A stretch of DNA of 64,000 bases, taken from Clostridiaceae bacterium Marseille-Q4149 (GTDB lineage: Bacteria > Bacillota > Clostridia > Oscillospirales > Oscillospiraceae). The stretch is taken from assembly GCA_018228685.1 (NCBI GenBank), contig CP073691.1, forward strand, positions 1,674,001-1,738,000. The letters are read 5' to 3'. Each line of letters opens with the position of its first letter. The stretch's first letter is position 1. Below are positions 30,036 through 55,269 of this stretch, piece after piece. The position numbers and the translations under genes are program-made. Under the pieces are notes generated by a model. The model worked only from the letters and a program-made list of their open reading frames with translations. It had not been told where the DNA came from and searched no databases.

Positions 30036-31550
<1,515 letters not shown>

Positions 31551-36988: not shown

Positions 36989-37228
36989 ATTGTTTTCCTG
37001 CCTTTCTATCCATACCACCGGGGCGGTTGCCCCGGCAGGAACTTTTCTCTTATTATAACACCAATCTTGTGAAATCACAATTTATTCTTGTAGCCTGCCG
37101 CTGATACCGTCTGGATTGTGCATTCCCTTTCTTTTTGTTCCCTTTAATTAGCCATGAACTGCTTCATGCCCTGGCTCTTTGCTGATGTGTGATAAAGAAG
37201 TAGTAGAAGTGTAAAAAATTTTGCCGTT

Positions 37229-37261
37229 CCTATCCGGCGTTTGCGCATTGCGCCGGATAGG
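37229..37261 (-). terminator. terminator of the recombinase gene
   Basis: The arms cctatccggcg and cgccggatagg are perfectly complementary. On the minus strand a T-rich run follows, just after the recombinase stop codon at 37270. Confidence 0.8.
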
Positions 37262-37269
37262 TCGGGCGG

Positions 37270-38784
37270 TCATTCGGGCAGGTCTACCTTGCCAACGAAA
37301 GAGTAATAAATATCAATGTCCTGTCTGCGTGTGCCGTTCTCGTCATAGCTGCACTCATGCACAACGATTTTCTCCACAAACTCACGCAAAAGGGTAGGGG
37401 TAAGTTCTTCAAAGCTGGTGTACTTGCGGACAACATTCATAAACTTTTCTGCGTTTACCGTGGCTTCCTGCGCTTTGGAAAGCTCTGCCCGGATAGCGGC
37501 GGCTCTCTCTTTCAGTTCTTTCTGCTCGGCTTCATAGTCTGCCGACAGCTCCGTGAAACGCTCGTCTGAAATGCGCCCGGTCACGCTGTCCTCATACAGC
37601 CGCTTGAAGATAGCGGATAACTCGCTGATACGCTTCTCGGCGGCTTCCAGCTCCTTTTTCCTTGCGGCGTTCCTGCGCTTGCCCCCGTCCTCGTTCTGCT
37701 CGATCAGCAGCTTCATAAACCGGGCTTCGTGCTTCGCTGCATAGCTGGTGACTTTCCGCAGATTGTCGGTCACTCCGGCGGTCAACAGGTCGGTGCGGAT
37801 AAAGTGCGCCGTACAGTCACGGGTACGCTTCTTGTAGCTCCCGCAGATATAACAATCCTGCTTGCGGGTGGCGTTCTGGTAACGCTGCTGGTAAAGGACG
37901 CTGCCGCAGTCGGCACAAAAGAGTATGCCGGAGAATAAGCCCACTTCATCATAGCGGTTCGGGCGTTTGCGCTGCTTGCGTAACTCCTGCACACGCTCCC
38001 ACATCTGGGTGTCAATGATAGGCTCATGGTGGTTCTCGAAAATCGCCTGTTTCTCAATGGGGTTCTCTACGCTGTGCTTGGTCTTGTAGGACGGCTTCTC
38101 CGTCTTGAAGTTTACCAGACAGCCCGTGTACTCCCTGTTTTCAAGGATATGTACCACGGTATTGGTCGCCCACTTGCACTCATAGCCGGGGTGGTAGCGG
38201 CGGGTGCTTCCCGTCCGACGGTATTCCAGCGTTCCCGGCGTGGGGATCTCCTGCTCTGTGAGCATACGGGCTATCTTGGTCGGCCCGTTCCCGGCAAGGC
38301 ACAAGCTGTAAATCTGCCGCACAACAGGGGCGGCTTCCCCGTCAATGATAAAATTTTCGTCCTCGTCCATAAAGTAGCCGTATACGGGTTTGCTCGTGAC
38401 GGGCTTCCCGCTCATACCCTTAGACCGTTTTACTGCTTTGATTTTCTTGCTCGTATCTCTCACCAGCCATTCGTTAAAAATGTTCCGCAGAGGGGCAAAA
38501 TCATTGTCGCCCTGTGCGCTGTCCACTCCGTCATTGATAGCGATAAAGCGGACGCCTTTCTGTGGGAAAATCATTTCCGTATACATTCCCACTTGCAGAT
38601 AGTTTCGCCCTAACCGTGACATATCCTTGACGATAACGGTGCCGACTTTTCCGGCTTCAATGTCCGCAAGCATGGCTTGAAAACCGGGTCTTTGGAAGTT
38701 CGCCCCAGAATAACCGTCATCTGTGTACCATTGCAGATTGGAAAAGCCGTTCTGCTTCGCATAGGTTTCAAGAATACGCTTCTG
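37270..38784 (-). pseudogene. large serine recombinase, C-terminal 504 residues; N-terminus is at 49542-49640
   Basis: Homology begins in mid-protein with QKRILETYAKQNGFSNLQWY and continues through the resolvase core (VIVKDMSRLGRNYLQVGMYT), the recombinase domain and a four-Cys zinc ribbon (CADCGSVLYQQ, CYICGSYKKRTRDC). The coiled-coil C-terminus follows and ends FVGKVDLPE. The catalytic serine region is missing and an in-frame stop lies just upstream of the junction. The missing 33 N-terminal residues are at 49542-49640 on the same strand. Together they make about 536 residues, the normal size. The gene was therefore split by an insertion of about 10.8 kb. Confidence 0.88.
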
Positions 38785-38937
38785 AGATGGGATTTGTCAA
38801 GGATTTTTTCTGCAAATAATATGCAATGTTGTTAAGTGCTTATGACTCCAATTTTGCAGCATTAAGTTGCCTATTCTTGATGATGCAATTTAGCTAAAAG
38901 AAATCGGTGACGATAAGGCATAATAAGACAACGCACT

Positions 38938-40521
38938 TTACAAAGCATGTAACTCATCAATCTCTAAGACTCTGTCAAATGCACTATCAACGACATCATC
39001 GTGCGAGACAAATAATACTGTACTACTACTTAATCGCGTATTCAGCATTTCATAAAAAACCTTGGTGGAGTTTGAGTCAAGAGATGAGGTAATCTCATCA
39101 AATAAGATAATATGCGGACGATTGATTAATGTCCTAATTATTAGAATTTTTTGCTTTTCACCGCCTGAAAATTTGTTTCCAAAATCACCTGGTTTTTTCT
39201 GAAACAAGTCGTTTTCGCTAGTTATCAACGAATTAAGTCCGAATATGTTTATCAACTCATAGACTTCCTCTAAATTAGCATCGTCCATTGGATATATTAT
39301 ATTTTCATAGATTGACCTATTGAATAAATTTGTATTTTGAGAAACATACATTATGCCATCGATAGATGGGAGACCATATGTTATCTGCCCAGAGTCAATA
39401 TCTAATATCTTTGCTATAACTTTAAGTAATGTCGATTTTCCGCTTCCGTTCTCACCTCGAATGATGATATGCTCGCCTTTATTTACATACAAACTAGCAT
39501 TATCAAAAATTTTCTTGTTACCAAGCGTCAATTCAACATTCTGCATGGCAATCACCGTATTGGTAGGAACACTGATAAAAACTCTATGGCAATCTTTTTC
39601 ATTACTTTCGCTGTACCCCAATAGTTTTAACGCAGCTTTTAGTCTTGAGACCATTTCTATCATTGACAAGTATTCTCCACCAAAATCTCTCAAATTAAAT
39701 ATTGAGTAGATAAGTCCTAAATAGAATGAGATATTACCTATTCCCGTTGTGGAATAAATAGAAAATATAATCAGCTGTAAAAAGGTAATGAATACTAACA
39801 CAATGTGTTGAATCAGTTTTGCATTATCTATGGCCAACTGTAGACCATAGTAATTTTTTTGCTCACTATCCAAAAGGAAACGATATTTTTCTTTTTCTTT
39901 ATCATATGAACGGAATGAGTATATAGAGTCCAAATTCTGGCAGTAATCGATCAAATAAGAATTCACATCTGACGCAGACAACAGCGTACTATGAATCCTG
40001 TTATTTTGTTTTTTTAAAAGAACAATGGATATGAAGAAATATACTGAATAAGATAATATATAAGTCACACCAAGAAGGAAATGGAAATTAAAAAAAGCAG
40101 TTGAATTAATTATTATAATAGCGGAATGCTTGATTATAAATTGAACGCAGGAGTACAGCAAACTTCGTGTACAAAAAGATGATTCGGAAAAAAGATCCTG
40201 GATCTTCCCGGTTTCCATATCATCAAAATACATATATTTTTTTTTCACTAGGTCGTCAAAGAGAACCTGCTTTGAATATTTTCTAACACTCTGCATAGCA
40301 AGGTTGTTAGGATAATTCAAAATAGGGACTACTAAAAAGGATAAAATTGATAGGACCATGAAAAAAGGGTTTACGTGCAATCCCCCACTGCCGCTAAATA
40401 TCTTTGGCAAGGTATAAGGAAGTATGCTGTATAAACCATATCCTACAGACAAAAGAAGCAAATATATGGACACATTCAACCGACCTATTTTTTGTATAAG
40501 AGCACTTAAATATTGCTTCAT
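38938..40521 (-). CDS. ABC exporter, fused membrane and ATPase domains, no peptidase domain
   Basis: The ATG at 40521 gives MKQYLSALIQKIGRLNVSIY and a 527-residue half transporter. Residues about 1-290 contain six membrane helices. The ATPase follows with Walker A IIRGENGSGKSTLLKV, Q-loop YVSQNTNLFNRSI, signature KFSGGEKQKILIIR and Walker B HIILFDEITSSLD. The organisation is that of peptide or lantibiotic exporters, but the N-terminal C39 peptidase domain found in many of them is absent. A separate C39-like peptidase remnant lies 3.4 kb upstream on the same strand. Base composition is AT-rich. A DnaK-type precursor peptide was not found. Confidence 0.85.
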   Translation of the reverse strand: MKQYLSALIQKIGRLNVSIYLLLLSVGYGLYSILPYTLPKIFSGSGGLHVNPFFMVLSILSFLVVPILNYPNNLAMQSVRKYSKQVLFDDLVKKKYMYFDDMETGKIQDLFSESSFCTRSLLYSCVQFIIKHSAIIIINSTAFFNFHFLLGVTYILSYSVYFFISIVLLKKQNNRIHSTLLSASDVNSYLIDYCQNLDSIYSFRSYDKEKEKYRFLLDSEQKNYYGLQLAIDNAKLIQHIVLVFITFLQLIIFSIYSTTGIGNISFYLGLIYSIFNLRDFGGEYLSMIEMVSRLKAALKLLGYSESNEKDCHRVFISVPTNTVIAMQNVELTLGNKKIFDNASLYVNKGEHIIIRGENGSGKSTLLKVIAKILDIDSGQITYGLPSIDGIMYVSQNTNLFNRSIYENIIYPMDDANLEEVYELINIFGLNSLITSENDLFQKKPGDFGNKFSGGEKQKILIIRTLINRPHIILFDEITSSLDSNSTKVFYEMLNTRLSSSTVLFVSHDDVVDSAFDRVLEIDELHAL

Positions 40522-40835
40522 TATTATGACCATTCCTTTCCGCTGCACTCCAAGGCACAAAAGGGATACGAAACAGGAGTGCCTCTATCGCAGCTAAACG
40601 AAATTTGTTAGAATACGCTAGAGGAACGGGCACACTACACAGCATGTGGGGGGGTGAGTGGGTACAGCTATCCGCTGAACTGAATTATTATGTGTGCCGG
40701 ATGCTCTTTCAAGCGCAAATAAGTAGGGCGTAGAACCCTGTAAACTTATCTTTGGAGAGACAGACTGCTTCAAGCTTTCAGTGAGTGTCCAGTCCCTACC
40801 TGTTCCCTCAAATCTTCGAACTGAGGGGATGTGTT
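40522..40835. other. non-coding stretch ahead of the IS110 transposase
   Basis: This 310-bp gap contains the end of the ABC exporter's leader and, from somewhere near 40600, the left non-coding end of an IS110-family element. In active IS110 elements such a region encodes the bridge RNA. I could not place the exact element boundary by eye. Confidence 0.4.
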
Positions 40836-42117
40836 ATGCTCAAAATCGTTTATCCTATCTGCTGTGGAATGGATGTCCACAAATCGTTTCTGGTAGCCTG
40901 TATTGCCTCAATCAACGAGCAGGGCGTTACCACCTACAAAGGCAAGCGGTTTTGCACCTTTACAGGAGACCTCCGGCGGTGTGCCACCTGGTTGGGAGAG
41001 AACAACTGCAAGGACGTGTGTATGGAGCCTACCGGGATGTATTGGCTCCCTATTTACAACATCCTAGAACACGCCCGCAATATTGTCCTTGCCCACCCCA
41101 AGTACGTCAAGGCTATCCGGGGAAAGAAAACAGACAAAAAGGACGCCAAGTGGTTTGCGGACATCTTCAAGCACGACCTGGTTTCTGGCAGCTTTATCCC
41201 ACCATCAGATATTCGTCAGCTCCGGGATTTGGTGTGCTACCGCTGAAAACTCACCAATTTCACCACGGGAGAGAAAACCGGGCGCAGAATTGCTTGACTG
41301 TCTCCAATATCAAGCTGGATGACGTGTTTCCGGACGGCTTTGGCAAAGCAGCTACAGCTATTACCTCCGGCTGCTAGGAAGCAACGAATCCTTTCATGTA
41401 GCTCCATTCCTCAACAAGCGAGTCAAAACACCAGTTGAGAAAATCCAGGCCGCTGCGGACGGAGAGATGTGTGTGGAACAGGCCGAAAAACTCCGCATCA
41501 TCCGTTCCCACATGGACAGCCTTGAATTGTGCAAGGCCGATCTGGACTCTCTTATCCTGACCATCGCTGAGAAATATCTTCCCCAACTTAACCTCGTTAT
41601 GACGGCGCTAGGTATCCAAGCCTTTGCCACTATTGGCATCATCTCTTAAATTGGCGTGGATATGTCCGTTTTTTCCACCTCGAAGCATTTCTGCTCCTGG
41701 GCTGGGCTTACAATGAAAGTGCCGGAAAAAAAGAAAACCACCAGGAGCAGCCGGGCTGGGGCATACATCAAGCCCCTGTTGGTGCAGTGTGCGCTCTGTG
41801 CTATCCGGGCAAAGCAGTACCCAGAAGTCCGCAATCGCTATCTAGCTTTGAAGAAGCGCTGTGGTAACAAGAAGGCCATCATCGCCGTCGCCCTTGTGTT
41901 GCTGACTGCCATCTACAACATCCTCAAGAAGAACGAATCTTATAACCCTGAGCCTTACCGCAAGGCTGACCGTCCTCTCACACACCGTGAGATCTCTGCT
42001 GACCAGGCTATCTTAATCCTTCAAAGGCAGGGCTGTCTGGTAACCTCCCCGGCCTGGCTGATCTGCTCTAATTTTGGCCGCCATATGCCAGCCTGTTTTC
42101 GTGTCCCTTTTTCTGGA
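40836..42117 (+). pseudogene. IS110-family transposase, decayed
   Basis: The N-terminal DEDD/RuvC-like domain is recognisable: MLKIVYPICCGMDVHKSFLV, VCMEPTGMYWLPIYNIL and the catalytic-type KTDKKDAKWFADI. A TGA at 41244-41246 interrupts it after RDLVCYR. The Tnp_20 region then appears in other frames (CVEQAEKLRIIRSHMDSLEL; GIQAFATIGIIS then a TAA at 41646-41648; SVFSTSKHFCSWAGLT; KKKTTRSSRAGAYIKPLLVQ). At least two stops and several frameshifts make it inactive. It sits between the beta-propeller gene and the ABC exporter gene and separates what was probably one leftward operon. Confidence 0.88.
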
Positions 42118-42128
42118 TAATGATCAGG

Positions 42129-43793
42129 TTAAAATATTTCAAACTCCCCTCCTTCTTCACTTCTGATAAAATCATCTAAAGATTCAGCAGAATTACTAAG
42201 GACTCTTTTGAGAATTAGCCGCCATGTTTGGAAGTCTGCATCCTTCCAATTGCTTTTTCTTTTTACATAGTTAATCCTATCTCTAAAGTCTTTTTGCGAA
42301 ATGGACTTCCCATGAACCTTCATAAGTCCTTGCACCAATGCCGCTCCACTACTAAAAATATTCTCCTCTGTTGAAACCTTCAAATATTGATGTAGTACAA
42401 AGGAAGATGGCAACTGTTCTCTTTTGTCAATATAGATACTAATGCATGTTTTTTTAATTAAACCAAAATTTTCAAGCAAAACCGGAATTGCATAAAACCC
42501 ACTGACGCAATTGTTTTGTAAATTAAATTTATATGTAAAGGCATTTCCGATTTTTTTACCATTGACCACCCCATCTTTTGAAAAAACTGACACGTCAATA
42601 CTCGAAGATGTATATTCTCCACCTGTTTCGATAAGCACGCTCATAAGATTGCAATCTTTTTCTTCCAAAAAGTAGACGTCGTTATACATAGGCAAAGATA
42701 CATGTGCCTCTGAAACAACATCAAAACAAATCAGTTGACCATTTGCTGGTGGCTCGCCTGCTCCAATCAACGCCTTATTAGTTCCAAAACTGACCGCGCT
42801 ATAAGGAGTGTGACCAACTACTTTGTGCTGAAAAATTTCCCCCGTGTCCTTGTCTAATAAAAAAACTGAACAATCCGCCAAGACAAAAAGGGTCTTCCCG
42901 TAAATTGACGGTGGCGCAACAATAAGCCCTTCTCTGAACTTTTGCCTCCAAACAATACTTCCGTTTAATATGTCAGCACAACCAACCTCACCCTTTAGTG
43001 TTGTATAATACACTCTTTGGCTATCAACGACAGGAAAATGTCGTCCACAAAACCCAAAAACCCTTGTTCTCCATAGTTCTTTTCCTACTTTTAGATCAAA
43101 ACAAATGATGTCATGTCCGCATGATGCAAAAGCAAAGTCATCCTTTAGCCAAATGCCTGACGTATCCGAACTAATAACAGGGCTTCTACCTAACTCCATA
43201 GAATACATTATGCTTCCTTCTTGATTTATAAGCCATAAATAAGAACATGAGCAATCCCTTTCATTGTTGTGGAGCGTACCTGTGCATAATATGCCACCTT
43301 TGTACGGCGTAATATTACCGTAAATAAACGAATTGGGAATATGTAATTTTTTGACAACTTCTCCGTTTTTGTTTACGGCTAAAAGGGTGCTGCCGGAACC
43401 AAACCACAATGTTTCGTCTATAACATTTAATGTAGTTCGTACTCTGTGACCACCCTGAACAGCCCATTCTACAATGCCAGACTCAGCGGAAACAGCTTGT
43501 ACTGCATCAAACTCTTTTAGGAAAACAACAAGGTCGCCAAAAACAGTTGGTGTTCCATAACCACCATTGACAGCATCTATACTCCAAAGTATTTTCCCAT
43601 TATGCAGATCAACTTTCAATAAATGATACGCCTGTTCCATCTCAGAGTATGTAACGACATAGCCGAAGTATTCACTACAATTATTTCCATAAAATGGAGT
43701 TCTAACAACTGCTGGCATTTCTATACGCCAACTGTCATTAAGGAAATAACGTTGTTTGTCATTTTTATTTTTAATAATGTTTTTTCGGATCAT
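42129..43793 (-). CDS. PQQ-type beta-propeller protein
   Basis: The 554-residue protein has no signal peptide. Residues about 25-360 hold repeated blades of the PQQ/Trp-docking type, each with a pattern such as LHNGKILWSIDAV, ESGIVEWAVQ, KVGKELWRTRVFG and LNGSIVWRQKF. About 190 residues of a second domain follow that I do not recognise, ending GGEFEIF. Propellers of this kind often bind partner proteins. Its place between a C39-like peptidase fragment and an ABC exporter suggests a part in peptide processing, but that is inference. Base composition is AT-rich like its two neighbours and unlike the recombinase genes. Confidence 0.75.
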   Translation of the reverse strand: MIRKNIIKNKNDKQRYFLNDSWRIEMPAVVRTPFYGNNCSEYFGYVVTYSEMEQAYHLLKVDLHNGKILWSIDAVNGGYGTPTVFGDLVVFLKEFDAVQAVSAESGIVEWAVQGGHRVRTTLNVIDETLWFGSGSTLLAVNKNGEVVKKLHIPNSFIYGNITPYKGGILCTGTLHNNERDCSCSYLWLINQEGSIMYSMELGRSPVISSDTSGIWLKDDFAFASCGHDIICFDLKVGKELWRTRVFGFCGRHFPVVDSQRVYYTTLKGEVGCADILNGSIVWRQKFREGLIVAPPSIYGKTLFVLADCSVFLLDKDTGEIFQHKVVGHTPYSAVSFGTNKALIGAGEPPANGQLICFDVVSEAHVSLPMYNDVYFLEEKDCNLMSVLIETGGEYTSSSIDVSVFSKDGVVNGKKIGNAFTYKFNLQNNCVSGFYAIPVLLENFGLIKKTCISIYIDKREQLPSSFVLHQYLKVSTEENIFSSGAALVQGLMKVHGKSISQKDFRDRINYVKRKSNWKDADFQTWRLILKRVLSNSAESLDDFIRSEEGGEFEIF

Positions 43794-43865
43794 ATATATT
43801 ATGCTCCTTTCTCTTTGCGATTGATTGTAATTCGAAGTCTACGCAAAAAACATTTCGATAGGCAA

Positions 43866-43902
43866 CATGTGGGTGGAAGAGTTTCAATCATCCACCCACA
43901 TG
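43866..43902 (-). terminator. hairpin between peptidase remnant and propeller gene
   Basis: Perfect 12-bp arms, catgtgggtgga and its complement, enclose 13 bases in the 150-bp gap between the two genes. On the minus strand it is followed by TTGCC and later a T-run, so it may attenuate rather than fully stop transcription. Confidence 0.55.
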
Positions 43903-43942
43903 CCACCAATTCACAGTGGACTATATTGTCCAATACCGAGTT

Positions 43943-44659
43943 TTAGTAATTACTTGCATTGATGGAAGAAATAACGCTTTCCTTCTGCGACACACCACTA
44001 CTTCTGTTAATCTTCACCGTCTCCGTAAAGTCCATACAGATATTGTCCCTGTACTGATAAGGCCTGTCACTTGATAAGGTCGCAAGCACCTCGATTCTGA
44101 CATCGATATCTCCCGACAGTTCTTTTTCCAAAGGGAATGTAAATATCGCCTTTTCCCCAATCTTCCATTCGCCAGAAAGGCTCTGCGATTGCTGCTTTTC
44201 ATTTCCATTGAAGAGATAATGAATAGTCACTTTGAATGTTTCAAATTTCGTATTGTTTCTATCGATAACATAGCCTAAAGGCTCATAAAAGCCCAAATCA
44301 ACAGCAAGACTTGCATTTTCCTCGATAAGCACTGGCCTAATCTTGTGTGAAATCAAAGAAAGTCGCGTTCCTTTTTCAGCAGTGCAATTAACACATGCTA
44401 CATGGAGCGATTCATATGGGAGTTTGCCAACGCCGCCGTGTTGTCCACCCCAATTGGGGTTCCAAGGATCTACGATATCAAATTCCTCTTTGTCGTCATT
44501 ATACCCAACAATAAGGACACAATGAGACTCCATATCCAGGCGATGAGAGAGTTCTTCATTTTCGATTGGGTAGTCGGCGGCTGAATGAACACGAATCAAT
44601 GTGGGAACTCCGTTTACAATCGAGCTTTTTATGCTTTCAAGAGCTCTTAATGACCAATG
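43943..44659 (-). pseudogene. C-terminal part of a C39-like cysteine peptidase, joined to a recombinase
   Basis: About 238 residues follow the recombinase part in the same open frame. They contain ESHCVLIVGYNDDKEEFDIV then DPWNPNWGG, the His and Asp/Asn half of a C39_2-type papain-fold peptidase. A beta-rich domain of about 170 residues follows. The N-terminal part, with the catalytic Cys, is missing. The junction lies just after KDPENKYHW of the recombinase. The fragment is therefore the 3' portion of a cargo gene whose 5' end was lost when the two sequences were joined. Confidence 0.7.
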
Positions 44660-45193
44660 GTATTTGTTCTCCGGGTCTTTCTTGTAACCGTAAATGGCAC
44701 AGTTGGTGGTGGGCTTGCCGGATTCTCCCTTGACGCGGATGGCGGTTTTCTGCTTGCGGCTCAGGTCGCGCAGATACCACTCGTTCATGATGTTGAGGAA
44801 GGGGGCAAACTCGTTGCTGTTCTGGTCATCGCTGTCCACGCTGTTGGCGATGGCCACAAAGTGGACGCCGTGCTGTCGGAAGAATACCTCCGTGTAAAAT
44901 CCGGTTTGCAGATAGTCACGCCCCGCCCGGCTCATATCCTTGACGATCACATGGGCGACTTTGCCTGCCTCAATATCTGCGATGAGCTGCTTCCATGCCG
45001 GGCGCTCGAAATTACCGCCGCTCCAGCCGTCGTCCGTATAGTGTCGGCAGTTGGTGTAGCCTTTCTGCTGGGCATAGCTTTCGAGGTATTTTTTCTGATT
45101 CACGATGGAATTGCTATCCCCGGCGTTGTCATCGTCGCGGGACAGCCGCTCATAGAGAGCGGTAATTTTGCTTTCAGTCTGTTTCACGCTCAT
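44660..45193 (-). pseudogene. large serine recombinase, N-terminal 178 residues
   Basis: The ATG at 45193 overlaps the tnpW-like stop region. The complete catalytic domain is present: [20 protein letters not shown] with the active-site Ser, then VKDMSRAGRDYLQTGFYTEV and MNEWYLRDLSRKQKTAIRVK. Homology ends after IYGYKKDPENKYHW, where a peptidase fragment follows in frame. The DNA-binding recombinase and zinc-ribbon domains are lost. It is different in sequence from the split recombinase that flanks the segment, so it is most likely the insert's own enzyme. Confidence 0.88.
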
Positions 45194-45399
45194 GATGCGC
45201 TCCTTTCAGACTGTCGGCTCATTTGCGGTGTCTCCATTATACCATAGGTTCCGTCACTTGTAACCATATCATTGCGTACAATCCGTAAAATTTTATCCTC
45301 CATGGTCTCGCCGCCGCTTTCGTTGAACACGACTCTGACCTTGTAGGTGGTGCCGCCGATGCGGCGGATGATAAACTGTTCTCGTTTGTTCTGCTCCAT
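45190..45399 (-). CDS. tnpW: TnpW-like transposon protein
   Basis: The ATG at 45399 follows AAGGAGGATGCCT. The 69-residue product contains REQFIIRRIGGTTYKVRVVF, NESGGETMEDKILRIVRNDM, the short conserved module that precedes serine recombinase genes in these elements. An alternative in-frame start at 45492 also has a good ribosome-binding site and would add 31 residues. The stop overlaps the recombinase start, as for the TnpW at 49741. Confidence 0.7.
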   Translation of the reverse strand: MEQNKREQFIIRRIGGTTYKVRVVFNESGGETMEDKILRIVRNDMVTSDGTYGIMETPQMSRQSERSAS

Positions 45400-45644
45400 A
45401 GGCATCCTCCTTGCGTGATTGGTTGGTTCTTGATATAATGTGTTTGGTTCCGTTGGCTGTAAGCCAACCGTGTCTTTCGGTTGCTTTTCCATGCTCCATA
45501 TCCTCCTTTTCTCTGCAAACCGCCTCATAAGTAATCTGTGTAACTTGTGCTAAGATTACTTCCTCTACTAATAGGAGAAATACAGGGTGTAAATCGGAAC
45601 TGTTTTTGAAAAAAAAAATATTTTTTCGGGGAGGTGAAGCTGTC

Positions 45645-46577
45645 GTGGAACTTTGGGAGGATGAGCTGCTGCTGGATGATGATTTTTCCGATGAGGAAGA
45701 AGATGCCGAGGAGCAAATAGAGGAAACTGGTCTTGAAATAGATGCGGACGGCTTTGCCGATTGGGAGGATTCGTCTGACACTGCGCCGGTGGATGAGACG
45801 CTGGAGGAAGCGCTTGCAGAGGAACACACGCTGGAGCTGGAAAGCGAGCTGGAGCAGGACGAGCATCCCAGAGACTATCATGCCGAGCTGGAGGACGAGG
45901 AGGAAGAAGCCGCGCCCACCAGTGAAAAACGACTCAAGCGGGAGATTCGTGCAGAGGCGTTGAAGCGTTTAGAGGAAGCAGCCCGGACAGAATCGGATTT
46001 TCTGACTGTGGTAGACGAATGGAACAAGCTGGACAGGAACCGGGAGCGCCGGGAGCGTGACCACGAAAATCTGCGTGGAGACGTGCCGTTGGAGTTTCAG
46101 GCTGTACCTGATCCGAAGATTGCTCCCCTCTGGATGAATCTGCCAAGGTTCCGTCAGCTCTGTCAGGGAAACTTTCTCGACATCATCTTCTCCTGTCCCT
46201 ATGAGCTGCACGAGCTGACAGCAAACCGGTTTCTCTCCAAGCTCTTCTTCACCCTCAGCGATGAACAGAAGGAAGTGCTGTATTACCTGTTCGTCAAGCA
46301 ATACAGAACCACACGGCTTGCTGCCATCCGTGGGCAGTCCGACCGGAACATCCGAAAGCTGCGGATGACCATTCAGAAGAAGCTGCAAAGGCGGATGTAT
46401 GAGCATCTGAGCGAAAAGCTGGAAAACGATCATGGACTTACGCTGCGGGAGCGAGAGTTCGTAGAGGAATATGAAGCACTGCTGCAAACCATGGGCAAAG
46501 ATGCCGTGATCCGCCGGGAAAACAAAACCAAACCGAGAAAAAAGAAAACCGCCCTTGACGATGTCAAGGACGGTTGA
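45645..46577 (+). CDS. sigma-70-like factor with long acidic N-terminus
   Basis: A GTG at 45645, after GGGGAGGTGAAGCTGTC, is the best start; an upstream TTG at 45606 lacks a ribosome-binding site. The first 100 residues of the 310-residue protein are extremely acidic (LLLDDDFSDEEEDAEEQIEE). The C-terminal half has RFLSKLFFTLSDEQKEVLYY and TTRLAAIRGQSDRNIRKLRM, a region 4 type helix-turn-helix. It lies ahead of a DUF6076 gene in the same direction and is divergent from tnpW and the recombinase. A role in transcribing element genes is likely. Confidence 0.7.
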   Translation: MELWEDELLLDDDFSDEEEDAEEQIEETGLEIDADGFADWEDSSDTAPVDETLEEALAEEHTLELESELEQDEHPRDYHAELEDEEEEAAPTSEKRLKREIRAEALKRLEEAARTESDFLTVVDEWNKLDRNRERRERDHENLRGDVPLEFQAVPDPKIAPLWMNLPRFRQLCQGNFLDIIFSCPYELHELTANRFLSKLFFTLSDEQKEVLYYLFVKQYRTTRLAAIRGQSDRNIRKLRMTIQKKLQRRMYEHLSEKLENDHGLTLREREFVEEYEALLQTMGKDAVIRRENKTKPRKKKTALDDVKDG

Positions 46578-46633
46578 TACAATAGTAATATGGTTAATAT
46601 ATAGTTGGATTACGAGTTGAGAGGATCGACGCC

Positions 46634-47554
46634 ATGAAGAATCTCTTTGAGCAGTCCCGTTCCCATTGGGTGCGGTATGACCGCTATGAACTGAAAGCCG
46701 CCGCAGATGGGAAGCGGTACATCACGCCGGGAAAGAACGCTAAACCTGACATCTATAATCCCTTGAAGGAAGCGCCGGGAATCGTGCTGGATGCGCTGAA
46801 TGTGGGAATGTTGATGATGAACCGCAGTCCGGAGGACGAGGTGGAAAAGGCCATTCTGGAGTTTGTGACGCATTACGGCCTGCTGGGCCTGATGACAGCG
46901 CTGCCCACCACGCCGTCCTTCATGGACTATGAGAAAGTGTATCTGCCGAAAAACCATTTCATCAGGGCAGAATCCATGGAAACCGAGGACTATCTGGCGC
47001 TGTTCTATCCCTTTGACCAGCTGGATTTGGTCAAGAAGGGCATTGAGTCCAGCTGGAGCGTGTCCGGTGACCGCACGATGGTGGCGCTGACCATGACCTT
47101 TGCAGATGAACCCATGGCGAAAACCATGAGCTTCCAGCGGGAGTACGCTGAGCCGTATGAATGGGTGGCACAGCAGTTCAAGGACTGGGCCTTTACCCTG
47201 ACCACATCTATTCTGTACTACAACGATTATAATCTGATCGACGAGGATACAAGAAATCTGTACCGCATGGGCATGGCCGCCTTTGGCGGCATTGCGCCCA
47301 GCTATCATATTGAGCTGCTGGACAAGCCGACCATCTATTGGGATTTCCACTCTCTGCTGCTGGGCATCCAGATGATGTTCAGCTTCCTGCTGGTGGACGG
47401 AGAGAAGCCCCTGCGGCTGTGCAAGCACTGCCAGAAGGTGTTCCTGAGCAGCCGTTCCAATTCCGCATTTTGCAGTCCCCGGTGTAAGAATCAGTATAAT
47501 GTCTATAAGAGCAGAGGAAAAAATAAGGGACAGGACGGTGAGAATGATGATTGA
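46634..47554 (+). CDS. DUF6076 protein with C-terminal zinc-finger
   Basis: The 306-residue protein has a long alpha/beta region with no catalytic motif that I recognise. A C-terminal treble-clef-like finger, RLCKHCQKVFLSSRSNSAFC then SPRCKNQYNVYKSR, gives four cysteines for one zinc ion, and a basic tail follows. This is the DUF6076 pattern, often found after the acidic sigma-like protein in Clostridial elements. The finger suggests nucleic-acid binding. The last 11 bases overlap the AlbA_2 gene. Confidence 0.75.
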   Translation: MKNLFEQSRSHWVRYDRYELKAAADGKRYITPGKNAKPDIYNPLKEAPGIVLDALNVGMLMMNRSPEDEVEKAILEFVTHYGLLGLMTALPTTPSFMDYEKVYLPKNHFIRAESMETEDYLALFYPFDQLDLVKKGIESSWSVSGDRTMVALTMTFADEPMAKTMSFQREYAEPYEWVAQQFKDWAFTLTTSILYYNDYNLIDEDTRNLYRMGMAAFGGIAPSYHIELLDKPTIYWDFHSLLLGIQMMFSFLLVDGEKPLRLCKHCQKVFLSSRSNSAFCSPRCKNQYNVYKSRGKNKGQDGENDD

Positions 47555-48983
47555 CCGCTGGATCGCAGAAGCGACCGAATATGATTTCAAGGTCGCGCTG
47601 GAGGTAAAGAAGCCGAAAAGCTGGCTCAAAAGCGTCAGTGCCTTTGCAAACGGCATCGGCGGCACGCTGTTTTTCGGGATTGATGATGACAGAAACGTGA
47701 TAGGCTTGTCAGATGCGCAGACCGATGCGGAGACGATCAGCCGTCTGATCAAAGAGCGAATCACGCCCTATCCGAGTTTTGTCCTTGCTCCTGAACGAGA
47801 AAATGGTAAGGACATTCTTGTCCTGTCCGTATCGTCCGGACGGTCTACGCCGTATTACTATAAAGCGGACGGTATCATGGAAGCCTATATCCGAATGGGC
47901 AATGAAAGCGTGATCGCCCCGTCCTATGCGCTGAATCAGCTGATTCTCAAAGGGATGCACCGCACCTATGACGAACTGGTTTCCGAGTATGATTTCAAGG
48001 ATTACGCTTTTTCCAAGCTACGCGAACGGTATAAGGCTTGGACGGGCAACAGCATGGAAGAAAAGCTGTTCGATTCCTTCGATATGCGGGACGAACACGG
48101 CAAGCTGACCAATGCAGGCGCTTTGCTTGCGGATGATTCTCCCATCCGACATTCCCGCCTGTTCTGCACACGCTGGAACGGCCTTGATAAAAGCGGCGGC
48201 ATGGTAGATGCACTTGACAGTGCGGAATTCTCCGGCAGCCTGATCATTCTGCTCAATGAGGGCGTCAGCTTTGTCAAGCGGAATATGAAAACGCGCTGGA
48301 AGAAAACCGCCGATTCCCGTGTTGAGATGCCCGACTACTGCGAACGAAGCGTTTTCGAGGCCCTTGTCAATGCACTGATCCATCGTGACTATCTGATTTT
48401 GGGCAGCGAAGTCCACATCGACATTTACGATGACCGCCTTACCATATATTCTCCCGGCGGTATGGCAGACGGCACACGGATACAGGAGCGTGATCTGTCC
48501 AGTATTTCCTCCACGCGCCGCAACCCTGTCCTTGCAGATATTTTCGGACGGCTGGGCTATATGGAGCGGCAAGGCAGCGGCTTTAAGAAAATCACGGAAA
48601 CCTACCGCGCCGCTCACAATTACCGTGACGAACTGGAGCCTAAATTCTATTCAGATGCCAGTTCTTTTCAAGTTACGCTCTATAATCTGAATTACGGAAC
48701 TGCGGCAACCGCAAACAAGGTTACGATTGAGGACGAAAATGTTGCGATTGAGGTTGCGATTGACCGGCTGAACGCAAGCCAAGGTACGATTGCAAAGGCG
48801 AAAGCAGTATTTGCAAATATGGGCGCTGATGGCGTCTTTGGCCGATCTGACATTGCTGCTATCACAAAGGATTCTGTTACTGCCGCAGGCAATCTCATTA
48901 CAAAACTGAAAAATGCGGATTTGATCGAGCCTGTCAGCGGCTTTGGAAAGGGTAAATATAAGTTTATAGCACCAAAAGAATAA
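47544..48983 (+). CDS. AlbA_2-domain ATP-binding regulator
   Basis: The ATG at 47544, next to a second ATG, starts a 479-residue protein. Residues about 10-125 are the AlbA_2 (divergent AAA_4) domain, with KVALEVKKPKSWLKSVSAFA, NGIGGTLFFGIDDD and the YYYKADGIMEAYIRMGNE strand. The middle contains the GHKL-like ATPase part (ALVNALIHRDYLILGSEVHI, GGMADGTRIQERDLSS). The C-terminus looks like a winged helix (IAAITKDSVTAAGNLITKLK). Proteins of this kind are putative transcriptional regulators. It closes the sigma/DUF6076 operon before a strong terminator. Confidence 0.82.
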   Translation: MMIDRWIAEATEYDFKVALEVKKPKSWLKSVSAFANGIGGTLFFGIDDDRNVIGLSDAQTDAETISRLIKERITPYPSFVLAPERENGKDILVLSVSSGRSTPYYYKADGIMEAYIRMGNESVIAPSYALNQLILKGMHRTYDELVSEYDFKDYAFSKLRERYKAWTGNSMEEKLFDSFDMRDEHGKLTNAGALLADDSPIRHSRLFCTRWNGLDKSGGMVDALDSAEFSGSLIILLNEGVSFVKRNMKTRWKKTADSRVEMPDYCERSVFEALVNALIHRDYLILGSEVHIDIYDDRLTIYSPGGMADGTRIQERDLSSISSTRRNPVLADIFGRLGYMERQGSGFKKITETYRAAHNYRDELEPKFYSDASSFQVTLYNLNYGTAATANKVTIEDENVAIEVAIDRLNASQGTIAKAKAVFANMGADGVFGRSDIAAITKDSVTAAGNLITKLKNADLIEPVSGFGKGKYKFIAPKE

Positions 48984-48988
48984 AGATA

Positions 48989-49024
48989 ATGCCCGTTATT
49001 GGCCATACTGCCAATAACGGGCAT
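48989..49024. terminator. bidirectional terminator
   Basis: The arms atgcccgttattggc and gccaataacgggcat are perfectly complementary around CATACT. It separates the AlbA_2 gene from the convergent tnpV. Confidence 0.85.
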
Positions 49025-49027
49025 CTG

Positions 49028-49399
49028 TCATTCATATACAAGCTCAGTCAGAACGATTTCCTCTGCGCGGCTGTGGATGTTGTTCATGCGGCGCACCCAT
49101 TCCATTTGGTCGGCGGCTTTGAGCGCTTCGGTCACATCTTCCTGCCTTGCCATATCGGAAACGATGATTGCCATACGCTCGTTGCAGGCTTGGTCGATCT
49201 CGGCAAGGTGCCGATGCAGCGTTCCGCTTGTGAGCAGGTTTGTGTAGAGAATAGGGCGATGTTCTTTCAGATAGCTGCGGCGCATACGCCCGTACTTGCC
49301 GATCTGATATTCTGGTTCGTCCGGCAGCGCAAGGTTCGGGATAAGATAATCACCCTCCTGACGGTAAGTGCCGCCCATTTCCTCAAATAGAGATTTCAT
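49028..49399 (-). CDS. tnpV: transposon-encoded protein TnpV (second copy)
   Basis: The 123-residue protein shows the TnpV pattern (PNLALPDEPEYQIGKYGRMR, RSYLKEHRPILY, MEWVRRMNNIHSRAEEIVLT). It differs enough from the copy at 36379 to have come from a different element. It is close to the right junction of the inserted segment. Confidence 0.85.
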   Translation of the reverse strand: MKSLFEEMGGTYRQEGDYLIPNLALPDEPEYQIGKYGRMRRSYLKEHRPILYTNLLTSGTLHRHLAEIDQACNERMAIIVSDMARQEDVTEALKAADQMEWVRRMNNIHSRAEEIVLTELVYE

Positions 49400-49541
49400 A
49401 AAGTTCAGCTCCTTTTTGTGTTGATTTGCAACGGTTATAAGGTTTTTTGGGCTCCTTTCCTACAACTGCTGTTCCATTCACCACAAATGAGCCGCAGTCA
49501 TATGTATTAGGTGGGAGAAACCACCCTCTACATAGTAACTC

Positions 49542-49640
49542 TTGGTTTGAAATAGAATTGCTCTCACCTTGCAGCTCGTCCTCGTGGGATAATCTCGGAT
49601 AAAGGGCGGTAATAAGGTTTCGGGTGGTCTGTCTTAACAT
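49542..49640 (-). pseudogene. serine recombinase N-terminus, 33 residues, other half at 37270-38784
   Basis: From the ATG at 49640, preceded by GGAGGACACT, the sequence reads RNLITALYPRLSHEDELQGE then SNSISNQ, with the catalytic Ser in YPRLSHED. After this Gln the frame continues with unrelated residues (ELLCRGWFLPP). The next recombinase residues, KRILETYAKQ, are found at 38784 on the same strand, so this is the other half of a gene split by the 10.8-kb insert. Confidence 0.85.
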
Positions 49641-49740
49641 AGTGTCCTCCATTTCCGACAGCCAGCCCCACTATTCCGTATGACTATCATACCACACGCC
49701 GGGGCTGGCTGTACAGTCCTTTCTGCTTCTTTACGTCCCG

Positions 49741-49923
49741 TCAAATTGCCGATTTTTGTGTAGCAGCTTCCGCTTCCAGCACTTTCAGCATTTTATCGGC
49801 GGCGGTGGCGGTGGTGTCCTGCTTGAAATAGCCGGAAACGACAAGGACAGAATTACCTATGCGGATTTCCGTCACGCAATCCGGGCGGCGGGTGCTGCGG
49901 TCATTCTTTGGGGTGTTGGTCAT
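49741..49923 (-). CDS. tnpW: transposon-encoded protein TnpW
   Basis: The 60-residue protein reads DCVTEIRIGNSVLVVSGYFK then ATAADKMLKVLEAEAATQK, the TnpW consensus. Its ATG overlaps the stop of the DnaC-like gene. It directly precedes the recombinase fragment, the usual gene order of these elements. Confidence 0.88.
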   Translation of the reverse strand: MTNTPKNDRSTRRPDCVTEIRIGNSVLVVSGYFKQDTTATAADKMLKVLEAEAATQKSAI

Positions 49924-50777
49924 AGGCGGCTCTCCTTTCTGTTCATCAGCTTTTTCAGTTGTCCCATTTTCTCCTGCGCCGTGGCTTTTCGGAAGTTGCT
50001 CCCGGTAAAGCGGACAGGAGAACACATTTCAATCAGACGGTCATAAATGCGGGCGTGGGCGGTGTCCTCCGGGTGCTGCAAGTCCTCCAGCGTGAGATTA
50101 GTCGTGACGATCAGCGGCCTGCCGCTGCGGTAACGGCTGTCAATCACGTTGTAGACCTGCTCTAAGCCGTATTCCGTTCCCCGTTCCATTCCAAAATCGT
50201 CAAGGATAAGCAGCGGGAAGCTGCAAAGTCGGGAGATATATTCATTCCTGCCCTCAAAGCTGGCGGCAAGGTCACCCAATATCAATGCAAAGTTTGTCAT
50301 GCACACGGGGATTTCACGCTCCATAAGGGCATTTGCGATACAGCCCGCAAAATAGCTCTTGCCTGTGCCAACGCCGCCCCATAGCAGATAGCCAATGTTG
50401 CGCTCTTTCATGGTTTCCCAGTTCTCCACATAGAAATGGGCGTGTTCCATTTGCGGGCACTTGCCGTTGTCGTTCTCAAACGTCCAGCCCTGCATAGCCG
50501 GGTCTGTAAAGCCCCGCCGCTTCAACCGCTCGACAGTTTCAAGGTGACTGCGCTGTTTCTCTGCGGCTTCCCGTTCCTCACGCTCTGCCCGCTGGCAGTC
50601 ACATTCTGCCGGGTGGCGGTCACGCCCCAGCCATGCGGCGGTTTCTTTGGGGAAATAGCCCTCTTTGGGCTTGTGGCACTTCCCGCAGTATAAAAGCCCG
50701 TCCTCGCCGGTGTAGTCCTCCGGCTCCGGCGTGGTGTCGGTCATATTCAAAATCATTTCATCAAATCCATTCGTCAT
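49920..50777 (-). CDS. DnaC/IstB-like helicase loader
   Basis: The 285-residue protein has an N-terminal zinc-binding pair (LLYCGKCHKPKEGY, ECDCQRAE) and an AAA+ ATPase domain with Walker A YLLWGGVGTGKSYFAGC, Walker B FPLLILDDFGMERG and a sensor region VTTNLTLEDL. This is the layout of DnaC-type loaders in conjugative transposons, which load a helicase during element replication. It overlaps the replisome organiser gene upstream by 4 bases and tnpW downstream by 4 bases. Confidence 0.9.
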   Translation of the reverse strand: MTNGFDEMILNMTDTTPEPEDYTGEDGLLYCGKCHKPKEGYFPKETAAWLGRDRHPAECDCQRAEREEREAAEKQRSHLETVERLKRRGFTDPAMQGWTFENDNGKCPQMEHAHFYVENWETMKERNIGYLLWGGVGTGKSYFAGCIANALMEREIPVCMTNFALILGDLAASFEGRNEYISRLCSFPLLILDDFGMERGTEYGLEQVYNVIDSRYRSGRPLIVTTNLTLEDLQHPEDTAHARIYDRLIEMCSPVRFTGSNFRKATAQEKMGQLKKLMNRKESRL

Positions 50778-51532
50778 AAGCTCTCGCCCTCCTTACAGGT
50801 ATAATCGGGTATGCCCTTTTTCGGGGCTTTCTTGGCTGCGTCCTCCTGCGCCCACTTGAAAATCGTGGCTGCATGGCTCTTGTATTTCCTCCCGCTGGAA
50901 GCGATATGGCAGGATAGGCGGTCAATGTAATACTCCCACTTGCCGGGAAGCTCTGTTTTCAGCCCGTCAAGCTCCGTATCGGAAAGAATGACATTGTGGT
51001 ATCTGCCATAGGCGGCGGGGGCGGGGTGTCCCGTTTCTAACTCTCTCTCTTTTTCTATTTCTATATCTATCTCTTTCTCTATCTCTATCTCTGGTGGACA
51101 AATGTCCGCTCGATATGGTGGACATTTGTCCGCCCCTGTCTGCGGCAGGGCTTTTTGTTCCTGCAAAGCCAGCCGCGCCCTGCGCTTGCGCTCCCCCTCG
51201 GTAGAGGACTGGCCGATTAAAAGCTCAATGTTGCTCATGTAGAGTGCGCCGCTTGGCAAAGGCTCCACAAGCCCCAGCTTCATAAAGATTTTCAAAGCTC
51301 TCTCTACGGTACCTACCTGCTGGCGGGTAATGGTCGCAATCATCTGGGCGGTGTAGGGGATATTCTCGTCAAGCTGCAATTTCCCGCCGTTTTTCAGCGA
51401 TTTCAAGTACAGCTTCAAGAGAATGTTGGAATAGATAACGCCGTCCTGCATACTTTCCAGCAGAACGATTGCATCATCGTCAAAATAGCTCTCTTTCAGC
51501 TTGAGGTAGTAATATTTGCGGTTATCTGCCAT
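50774..51532 (-). CDS. phage replisome organiser-type replication protein
   Basis: The ATG at 51532 starts MADNRKYYYLKLKESYFDDD and a 252-residue protein. The N-terminal winged helix (VIYSNILLKLYLKSLKNGGK, IATITRQQVGTVERALKIF) matches the replisome organiser domain. An acidic/basic low-complexity linker (EIEIEKEIDIEIEKERE) follows, and the C-terminal region contains SSGRKYKSHAATIFKWAQED, typical of helicase-loader partners. It should bind the element's origin and recruit the DnaC-like loader encoded next. Confidence 0.85.
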   Translation of the reverse strand: MADNRKYYYLKLKESYFDDDAIVLLESMQDGVIYSNILLKLYLKSLKNGGKLQLDENIPYTAQMIATITRQQVGTVERALKIFMKLGLVEPLPSGALYMSNIELLIGQSSTEGERKRRARLALQEQKALPQTGADKCPPYRADICPPEIEIEKEIDIEIEKERELETGHPAPAAYGRYHNVILSDTELDGLKTELPGKWEYYIDRLSCHIASSGRKYKSHAATIFKWAQEDAAKKAPKKGIPDYTCKEGESL

Positions 51533-51713
51533 AGGCTGCGTCCTCCTTTTTCCAGCGTTTGGAATAATAGCGAGGGCATAGTATGATAACCGCCCGGAAG
51601 CTCTGTTTGCAGTCACGGGTGCAGCCCCGGCATAGGTCGTTGTAAGTGATACGGTTGCGGTGGTTGAGGAAGAAAGACCATTCCAGCCGCCGCTTCTTGC
51701 TCATTCTCGGCAA
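51522..51713 (-). CDS. small Cys-rich element protein, paralogue of the one at 33848
   Basis: The 63-residue protein MPRMSKKRRLEWSFFLNHRN has CRGCTRDCKQSF and ILCPRYYSK, the same four-Cys pattern as the copy at 33848-34036. It overlaps the replisome organiser gene by 11 bases and begins the replication operon of this module. Confidence 0.7.
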   Translation of the reverse strand: MPRMSKKRRLEWSFFLNHRNRITYNDLCRGCTRDCKQSFRAVIILCPRYYSKRWKKEDAAYGR

Positions 51714-51774
51714 TGGTAAGCTCCTTTCTGCCGTTCCTATCGGTGTAGCGGGATAGGGGGCATTTTCTGTATGT

Positions 51775-51891
51775 TCTCGGTATCATTTTCGGGCTTTTTC
51801 TGCCCTGTAAGCCCCGTTTGGAAGTCGGGGAGTATTGCGGTAAGGGTTCATATCATACCTGTATTTTTGTAGGGTTTCGGTATCATTTCGG
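51775..51891. repeat. iteron-like words upstream of replication genes
   Basis: TTTCGGTATCATTTCGG lies at 51875-51891 and a variant TCTCGGTATCATTTTCGG at 51775-51792. The same 17-mer is present at 34165-34181 in the other replication module. They could be initiator-binding or regulator-binding sites. Confidence 0.45.
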
Positions 51892-51899
51892 GGCGGTCT

Positions 51900-53531: not shown

Positions 53532-53892
53532 CTACTTTCTGCAAGACTTCAAACTTCAAGGCGGCAAGGTCGGCGGCGGCTCCCCGCACTTCCTTTTCCA
53601 GCCCCCGGTAGGGGCTTCCGTATTCGTTCAGGCTCCGGGCAATCTGGTTTAAGTTGCCGCCGATTTTCCCGTACTCTGCCGTGAGCTTGGAGAGGGCGGC
53701 AAGCAGCCCGTCATTGACCGGGGAAACGGTGACAATGGGGCGTATGGTCGCTTTCCGTATGGCTTGCCGGATAAACTCGGACTGGCTGATTTCATAAGCC
53801 GCCAGCCGCCCGGTGAAGTCGGCGTATTCTTCATCGGTCATGCGGGTCTTTACCACATGACGGCGGTGGGGCGTATTGTATTTCTTTCGCAT
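53494..53892 (-). CDS. mobC: MobC-like relaxosome protein
   Basis: The ATG at 53892 begins MRKKYNTPHRRHVVKTRMTD. The 132-residue protein has a ribbon-helix-helix N-terminus (KTRMTDEEYADFTGRLAAYE, ISQSEFIRQAIRKA) and the MobC motif GGNLNQIARSLNEYG. MobC proteins bind oriT and help melt it for the relaxase. Its 3' end overlaps the relaxase gene. The repeats at 54094-54213 lie upstream and are its probable target. Confidence 0.88.
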   Translation of the reverse strand: MRKKYNTPHRRHVVKTRMTDEEYADFTGRLAAYEISQSEFIRQAIRKATIRPIVTVSPVNDGLLAALSKLTAEYGKIGGNLNQIARSLNEYGSPYRGLEKEVRGAAADLAALKFEVLQKVGEAVGDTQTYQL

Positions 53893-54093
53893 GGTCTGTG
53901 ACCTCCTTTCTCGCCCGACAGGGCGCATAGCAGGGTTTGGGGAAGGCACTCCCCAACAAGATTCCCGCAGGGGCAAAAATAAGCGGAGAGCGAATTTTGG
54001 CACCTCGGTAGAATCTTGCTCTGAAAAACTCCGGCGTTCCCCGGCTCCCGTCCTTTCCGCTAACAAAACGTTTCAAAAGGGCTTTGCTACCCG

Positions 54094-54213
54094 CTATTCC
54101 GGCTTATCTTGAAAATTTTCCTTTCACTACCTACAACACCACGCAAAGCAAAATGGACGGAGATTTTTAGAATTTCCCCTCTATTCCCTACAACACCACG
54201 CAAGCCGGAATAG
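54094..54213. other. candidate oriT region of the MOBP module
   Basis: Outer arms CTATTCCGGCTT (54094-54105) and AAGCCGGAATAG (54202-54213) are perfectly complementary. Within and at the right end, the 17-mer CCTACAACACCACGCAA occurs twice in direct orientation (54130-54146 and 54187-54203). TTATCTTG follows the left arm and resembles ATCCTG-type nick sites of MOBP systems. The position upstream of mobC-relaxase fits. The whole gap 53893-54425 holds no gene. Confidence 0.55.
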
Positions 54214-54425
54214 GCGGACAATGGCAGTATTTTTTTCTTTGATACCCTCTACGGATAAGTAAGGGATTTTGCCAACTGCGGCGGCTATTTTCCCTTTTGT
54301 TTTTTCATACTGGGGATTTTCAAAAATGCCAAACAGGAACGAAAAAAAGCAGCAAATCTGTTGAATAGATTTACTGCTTTCTGGTTGCCGGCGAAGCGGC
54401 GGTTATTCAGTTGTAGGCGGTAGGG

Positions 54426-54629
54426 CTATCTCCCAAAGCGGAACTTGAAAATAGCTGTGAGAAGCGTCTGGGTGATGTAGTCCTCTGTATCTTGGTCTAC
54501 CCGTCCATTCACACGGGCGGCACATTGTATGCGGCGGCGGTAATACTGCAATACAGTTCCCACCGCTTCCGGCTCCCCGCTGGCGGCTTGGACGATTGTT
54601 TCATAGGGGAGAAGCCTATTATTTCTCAT
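54426..54629 (-). CDS. small helix-turn-helix protein of conjugative transposons
   Basis: The 67-residue protein starts MRNNRLLPYETIVQAASGEP and resembles the HTH_16 proteins of Tn916-type elements, which look like a truncated sigma region 2 (LPYETIVQAASGEPEAVGTV, LQYYRRRIQ, DYITQTLLTAIFKFRF). It overlaps the sigma-like gene by 11 bases. The pair probably regulates transfer or excision genes. Confidence 0.75.
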   Translation of the reverse strand: MRNNRLLPYETIVQAASGEPEAVGTVLQYYRRRIQCAARVNGRVDQDTEDYITQTLLTAIFKFRFGR

Positions 54630-55229: not shown

Positions 55230-55269
55230 TGGCTCGGCCGGGTTTGCTATTTATCCGGCAAACTTGAAT

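Follow-up and report, generated by a model that had tools for sequence, protein, structure and literature searches.

A large serine recombinase gene split by a second element

The window analysed here, a stretch of 64,000 nt from contig CP073691.1 of Clostridiaceae bacterium Marseille-Q4149, contains a tetracycline-resistance element whose large serine recombinase (LSR) gene, on the minus strand, is interrupted by another mobile element at precisely the position of a conserved catalytic motif. Sequence comparison confirms the split and its precision. The upstream piece of the gene encodes the first 32 residues (counted from MLRQ), ends with GESNSISN and is followed by the CA at 49544-49543; the remainder, from 38784 to 37270, starts with QKRILETYAK and runs to the stop codon. 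The intact gene used for comparison is a natural sequence and not an artificial joining of the two window pieces. It lies in genome G001 (contig C189), within almost the same tetracycline-resistance element, as open reading frame (ORF) L013:15009-16631, and encodes 540 aa from the upstream ATG, or 536 aa from MLRQ. Window positions 49543-59840 align with L013 15118-4822 at 99.8% identity over 10,298 bp, and positions 37151-38784 with L013 16750-15117 at 99.6% identity over 1,634 bp. The two alignments overlap by 2 bp and no more; this overlap is the CA core, found on the minus strand of the window at 49543-49544 and again at 38783-38784. On the plus strand, the empty site in G001 reads CGCTTC-TG-GTTTG, with one core copy only, and the window junctions read CGCTTC-TG-AGATGGG at one end and AACTCT-TG-GTTTG at the other. 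The insert thus comprises 38785-49542 (10,758 bp) plus one extra CA, the core being duplicated on either side, and the cut, AAC-CA^G, lies within a Gln codon.

These results bear out most of a preliminary description of the locus, which had taken the two pieces for one recombinase gene, split in frame within a Gln codon of the SNSIxNQK motif and of about 536 residues when joined: both pieces align collinearly to the single uninterrupted gene of G001, which is also the uninterrupted relative with the same join that the description had proposed to look for. Its coordinates for the insert were right to within a few bases and are replaced by those given above.

The insert carries both termini of a family of integrative mobilizable elements (IMEs) resembling Tn4451: a hairpin and a 19-nt motif precede tnpV at the left end, and the right end is CCTTGACAAATCCCATCT.

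Recurrence of the insertion site among related elements

To survey the family, the left-end pattern TGRCTRCGGCTCATTTGTG was scanned on genome contigs (at least 119 stretches) and on viral contigs (5 stretches); adding the window and four previously found loci brought the number of left ends to at least 129. The 400 bp beyond each left end were compared by alignment with 34 natural LSRs. An LSR flank was found for 52 of the 129 left ends listed, and these share one cut site, S-x-S-[IV]-x-N^Q, with the junction just before the last bases of the conserved Gln codon, after S-x-S-[IV]-x-N (H or T in a few). The expectation that related inserts would occupy this motif in other recombinase genes is therefore borne out, and, since the insertions recur at one codon, the split in the window is not due to chance. 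Removal of duplicate flanks, flanks shorter than 30 bp and unplaceable ends left 105 unique placeable ends, of which L111, L117, L148 and L167 were placed by hand. The 52 LSR cases were thereby reduced to 49 (L047 and L131 had duplicate flanks and L159 was unplaced), and L088, a contig-end flank resembling the LSR motif, was excluded from the count. Thus, 49 of the 105 unique ends listed are LSR insertions. Among these, all 34 with a CA core have the orientation seen in the window and all 15 with a TG core are inverted, so that the related inserts indeed share a core dinucleotide, for which the preliminary description had proposed to look, namely CA, or TG in inverted copies; the window has CA at both ends. 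That the core sets the orientation is the expected behavior of serine integrases, and the pattern fits this rule.

The targets are diverse. At 90% identity, the 33 N-termini form 28 groups; no two of the 15 C-sides are the same, and the ten genomes examined contain from 3 to 24 DUF4368 matches each. By our own rough estimate, which is not a computed test, random insertion would hit the Gln codon about once in 10^5 cases. One locus, L106, contains a possible join of two LSR halves. The viral contigs contained no match to the exact left end GAGTTACTATGTAGAGGGTGG or the exact right end TCCTTGACAAATCCCATCTCA; a scan based on TnpV yielded a single locus, at 52% identity.

The search for right ends was confined to genomes with known left ends, so that these do not form an independent sample. 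When right junctions were looked for by tblastn within the loci (8 kb or less on genome contigs), elements starting close to the end of a locus had no partner, as they extend beyond the loci; a search of their genomes then found partners. Ten right ends abut the complementary LSR half, namely all 7 exact matches from ten genomes, in a search assessed on its exact matches, and 3 of 8 loci (L207, L208 and L209) from seven genomes. Five of the ten have CA followed by Q[KQ]..., and in the other five TG precedes the reversed S-x-SIxN half.

Several elements have both ends on one contig: those of Faecalibacterium prausnitzii APC923/61-1 (about 18.5 kb), CE91-St56 (about 13.9 kb) and L116/L208 (about 13.5 kb). 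For Angelakisella massiliensis and Traorella massiliensis (about 20-21 kb each), L175 (about 18 kb) and L182 (about 12 kb), numbering and coordinates suggest that the two ends share a contig. Full-length LSRs are present in copies of about 13-18 kb from F. prausnitzii and other gut Clostridia. The APC923/61-1 element encodes TnpV, RhuM, TnpW, a 680-aa LSR with DUF4368, a CHC2 zinc finger, DUF5906 and a MobA/MobL relaxase and is, judged by these genes, an IME. Between the ends of the CE91-St56 element lie a 693-aa LSR and a 565-aa protein that is putatively MobA/MobL-like by resemblance.

The LSR targets share positions beyond the core. On the N side, T is present at position 8 in 34 of 34 and A at position 9 in 31 of 34; on the C side, T is present at position 9 in 14 of 15. 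The 45 unique non-LSR sites with a CA core have T at 8 in 29 cases and A at 9 in 33 (no formal test against composition was made), and all five non-LSR sites with a TG core have T at 9. In our reading, this half-site preference would be a property of the enzyme itself, which the motif would satisfy through its Ile, Asn and Gln codons. Pfam was run on ten of the 70 non-LSR flanks. Among the non-LSR targets, those in mobile-element genes include a relaxase nuclease domain (L087, L158, L164), a tyrosine integrase (L113, L122), the rve domain of an IS3 element (L048), an IS200 Y1 transposase (L121) and TnpV (L156); other targets look chromosomal or intergenic. The left ends of L087, L158 and L164 abut the relaxase genes in the conserved HNH region.

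The guests and their targets carry different recombinases. Eighteen element LSRs, from a clade with sizes mostly of 660-700 aa, are at least 57.5% identical to each other (median 73.5%), whereas none of 14 target halves exceeds 54% identity to any of them, and the target LSRs therefore belong to other clades than the guests. The preliminary description had pictured elements generally stacking in one another's recombinases; instead, a single family with its own LSR clade is involved. Nor does insertion at the motif explain all the nesting, as had been suggested, because the LSR remnants at 43943-45193, 30162-31520 and 60251-60754 of the window are broken elsewhere and not at SNSIxNQ.

Composition of the insert, its carrier and its surroundings

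Features of the window that bear on the nested elements are compiled in the table.

Features of the interrupted recombinase gene, the insert and the outer element (window positions)
Feature	Position	Strand	Basis
Outer tetracycline-resistance element with interrupted LSR, insert included	37151..59840	-	Collinear with L013
Outer LSR gene, 5' piece (MEDTMLRQ...SNSISN-CA), host gene of the insertion	49543..49652	-	Intact homologue L013:15009-16631
Outer LSR gene, 3' piece: Resolvase remainder, Recombinase, Zn ribbon, DUF4368	37270..38784	-	Pfam, L013 homologue
Core dinucleotide CA, left copy	49543..49544	-	Alignment with empty site
Core dinucleotide CA, right copy	38783..38784	-	Alignment with empty site
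Left terminus, AGAGTTACTATGT arm within conserved hairpin	49498..49542	-	Comparison of left ends, folding
Conserved 19-nt left-end motif TGACTGCGGCTCATTTGTG	49482..49500	-	Pattern matches elsewhere
Right terminus ...TTGCAGAAAAAATCCTTGACAAATCCCATCT	38785..38830	-	By-eye comparison with right ends of relatives
tnpV of insert	49028..49399	-	PF14198, E=3e-49
AlbA/Schlafen-type ATP-binding protein gene of insert	47499..48983	+	PF04326, PF13749
306-aa protein	46634..47554	+	Similar ORFs in L010, L215, L217; no Pfam match
323-aa protein	45606..46577	+	Similar ORFs in L010, L215, L217; no Pfam match
tnpW of insert	45190..45528	-	PF14202, E=2.5e-16
Insert's own LSR, N-terminal 180 residues, truncated	44654..45193	-	Resolvase match; relatives continue beyond
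C39-like peptidase fragment, fused in frame to truncated LSR	43943..44653	-	PF13529, sequence at join
Beta-propeller (PQQ_2) protein, cargo	42129..43793	-	Pfam
Broken, presumably IS110-like insertion sequence	40507..42120	+	ORFs; strong DNA matches in sampled genomes
ABC transporter (permease and ATPase), cargo	38938..40560	-	Pfam

The insert encodes both TnpV and TnpW, as does the relative L215; TnpW is likewise known from Tn4451. Over 44654-48851, the insert is 88% identical to a metagenomic relative, MT838923 (L010), whose LSR runs on past 44654, the position at which the window LSR switches in frame to the C39-like peptidase. Of the LSR domains, the window copy has kept the Resolvase part alone, whereas the relative L215 encodes Resolvase, Recombinase, Zn ribbon and DUF4368 (L215:4172-6214), together with a MobA/MobL relaxase. 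No relaxase was noticed in the ORF list and Pfam matches of the window insert, which is decayed. When 391 sampled Clostridia genomes were compared with the right-hand stretch of the insert, strong matches were confined to the insertion sequence, which we take to be IS110-like from a protein motif; elsewhere the matches were scattered and weak. The insert is best read as a Tn4451-like IME in a decayed state, with its own LSR truncated and its interior replaced. Because both ends are present but the LSR has only 180 residues and no relaxase was noticed, this copy could probably move only with help in trans.

The left end of the window insert, folded together with the leader (147 nt), is more stable than 200 shuffled sequences (z=-3.4). 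In single-sequence folds, the terminal stems differ in sequence between classes and the pairing is kept. RNAalifold on a MAFFT alignment missed the terminal hairpin that these folds show; it returned a second stem with two-sided changes in 3 of 9 pairs. An Rfam search of the element end gave no match to a described RNA family. The hairpin and the 19-nt motif (49438-49542) seem to be more strongly conserved than a serine-integrase site would require. A general rule by which tnpV is driven from the promoter of the target was considered and dropped, because the inverted (TG) copies face away from the promoter. At the other end, the last 45 bp or so of the insert look similar to the right ends of the relatives. 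An outward-facing TTGACA at 38795-38800, also present at right ends of relatives, is a possible -35 box for the 3' half of the target; chance matches to a -35 box also occur (L211).

The outer element has the gene order RPP tet gene, relaxase-like gene and (split) serine recombinase. The tet gene (56787-58706) belongs to the TetM/W/O/S family, over the NCBIfam cut-off; the relaxase-like match at 51900-53531 is below the NCBI cut-off, and a MobC-like match is also weak. A methyltransferase-like ORF was recognized by reading. A similar element with erm(G), LSR, TnpW and relaxase lies in an Escherichia coli chromosome (NZ_OZ040764.1, L012), between two parts of autotransporter/AIDA-type genes, apparently after cross-phylum transfer.

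Beside the outer element, positions 36400-37182 are 99.7% identical to a region with TnpV and a helix-turn-helix protein on the Vescimonas fastidiosa megaplasmid NZ_AP023416, and therefore a further TnpV-bearing element abuts the outer one. A vanG-like cluster with homologues of VanR, VanS, VanG ligase, VanXY and VanT (23777-29560) adjoins the nested elements; VanR, VanG ligase and the catalytic part of VanT are over an NCBIfam cut-off, VanS and VanXY are not. The LSR at 30162-31520 matches Resolvase and DUF4368 but neither Recombinase nor the zinc ribbon, apparently owing to an internal deletion. At 60251-61047, an N-terminal LSR part is fused to a VirD4-type C-terminus, as seen by comparison with the VirD4 ORF of L013; an LSR of the same N-terminal type is the target in L208.

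Target choice, alternative explanations and known systems

The empty site, the 2-bp copies, the conserved termini, the recurrence at one codon, the link between core and orientation and the relatives with full-length LSR and relaxase are very probably explained by site-specific integration by a DUF4368 LSR that prefers the DNA for the conserved I-x-N-Q motif in the LSRs of other elements. In this mechanism, the element's own LSR would integrate the circular form by recombination at the 2-bp core, preferentially in the DNA encoding the Ile-x-Asn-Gln-Lys motif near the N-terminus of LSRs from other mobile elements. That DNA would provide the core, as the CA of the Gln codon; an A-T step, in the Ile codon 8-9 bp upstream; and in most cases a T, in a hydrophobic codon, 9 bp downstream. 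The core would dictate the orientation. Insertion would separate the serine of the RLS motif, presumably the nucleophile of the target LSR, from the rest of the catalytic domain, and for this reason the recombinase of the carrier should be off, and the carrier immobilized, while the guest is resident; precise excision, which we infer to occur, would restore it. One type of mobile element thus seems to reside within the recombinase genes of others.

Several observations weigh against this interpretation. More than half of the unique ends listed (56 of 105) lie outside LSR genes. In an even sample of 391 Clostridia genomes, the left motif was found in only 4, and a single one of these (L047) is in an LSR gene; the exact right-end pattern had 2 matches in this sample, as did the reversed control, and neither match of the pattern is flanked by an LSR. 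From the seven-genome search, L212 has a non-LSR right flank, and the flank of its left end, L110, is likewise non-LSR; L210 has the look of a good right end, yet no LSR shows in its 135-bp flank, even though the corresponding left end, L201, is inside one; and three loci (L211, L213, L214) could not be recognized as right ends. The gene content varies as well: TnpV is found within 600 bp of 69 of the 85 left ends with that much sequence downstream, and not at the other 16, and an LSR of the element's own clade, at 60% identity or more, follows 13 of the 19 ends with 6.5 kb downstream.

Part of the bias towards recombinase genes could arise from selection, if insertions land widely and those in dispensable mobile genes survive and spread. 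LSR genes are dispensable to the cell and travel, and several other targets also belong to mobile elements (relaxase, Tn916-type integrase, IS3 and Y1 transposases, TnpV). Selection alone would, however, scatter insertions along the gene, whereas the 52 LSR insertions listed sit at one codon, and the non-LSR sites show the same half-site preference; as the main cause, selection appears rather unlikely. Alternatively, the guest could act as a switch that is excised on cue, restoring the recombinase of the carrier and placing both under common regulation. Excision of skin and SPbeta restores sporulation genes, and the in-frame, precisely reversible geometry, as well as the conserved hairpin and tnpV beside the start of the target in CA-type insertions, would suit such a role. 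Yet both orientations occur, the carriers are diverse, and the copy in the window retains only a minor part of its own LSR, so that we consider a switch quite improbable.

A structured, conserved terminus (z=-3.4 against 200 shuffles) with stems that differ between classes and still pair might also point to a group II intron or another RNA-type element. There is no Rfam match, and no reverse transcriptase ORF was noticed, though no search aimed at one; both ends, the 2-bp core and its relation to orientation fit a serine recombinase, and the complete elements with LSR and relaxase speak strongly against an intron, which we regard as extremely improbable. Still less credence can be given to two unrelated recombinase genes, or an assembly join, mimicking one gene: the natural intact gene with the same flanks in G001 already contradicts this, and the same type of junction recurs across many assemblies.

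Site-specific integration by the element's own LSR might be part of a broader pattern, in which a lineage of IMEs of gut Clostridia is specialized as a parasite of other mobile elements. Its integrase would read DNA that an LSR can hardly change, LSR-borne elements would generally be targets, immobile while a guest is resident, and the guest would be spared self-attack by a Tyr codon in place of the T-containing hydrophobic codon found 9 bp from the core in most targets. This broader view is possible, but we would sooner doubt it than adopt it. The protective role of the Tyr codon in the element's own LSR is hypothetical: the 18 element LSRs were picked by a pattern that includes this codon, and two target LSRs (L187 and L225) also have Tyr there, which argues against self-avoidance.

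For one family of mobile elements, the results provide a concrete rule for landing sites, with the coding sequence of a catalytic motif as the attachment site, and the rule offers one reason for the nested elements of gut Clostridia. By this rule, a removable guest should account for the split in some of the 'broken' recombinase genes of resistance-carrying elements, a point of importance when the mobility of such elements is assessed. The natural set of sites, with two cores and matching orientations, is a ready test of target choice by serine integrases.

Serine-integrase IMEs as such are known, as are IMEs in backbone genes of conjugative elements; a target preference for LSR genes appears undescribed in the literature covered. 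That literature, with few subscription papers, preprints or supplements in it, yielded no description of recurrent integration into LSR genes. The multi-targeting clade of DUF4368 LSRs (PMC10083194) was excluded from an enrichment analysis of target-gene Pfam domains, and the parts seen do not mention a preference for LSR genes; the element LSR likewise has DUF4368 and several target genes and may belong to this clade. The IME_Rho_tet family (504 complete and 1,090 partial elements; PMC12904643) shares with the outer element the plan of RPP tet gene, methyltransferase-like ORF, relaxase-like gene and serine recombinase. It resembles the carrier and not the insert, a likeness judged by gene order, and guests in its recombinase are not mentioned in the portion covered. 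An erm(B) element within the serine integrase gene of an IME, described as a 'matrioshka' (PMC7168690), likewise disables an integrase gene, but it is a single 1.7-kb element, for which neither an LSR of its own nor a recurrent motif is mentioned in the text seen.

Closer parallels are IMEs with serine integrases in the maff2, snf2 and traG genes of integrative conjugative elements (PMC5357655, PMC5704250). There, too, site-specific insertion of an IME disrupts conserved genes of another mobile element; the family described here differs in targeting the recombinase gene itself, in many carriers and at one conserved coding motif. The mobilizable transposons of the Tn4451/Tn6104 type, which encode the LSR TnpX, TnpV and MobA/MobL (PMC3158075), have in common with the insert an LSR with a 2-bp core and TnpV, and the MobA/MobL relaxase is also found in its intact relative. 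Just as Tn6104-Tn6106 lie within ORFs of Tn6103 (PMC3158075), the insert is integrated inside a larger element. Unlike these transposons, the insert family has as its recurrent target the SNSIxNQK codon of other LSRs, a core of CA or TG and a conserved hairpin end. The family is a known kind of element, a serine-integrase IME, with a striking target preference.

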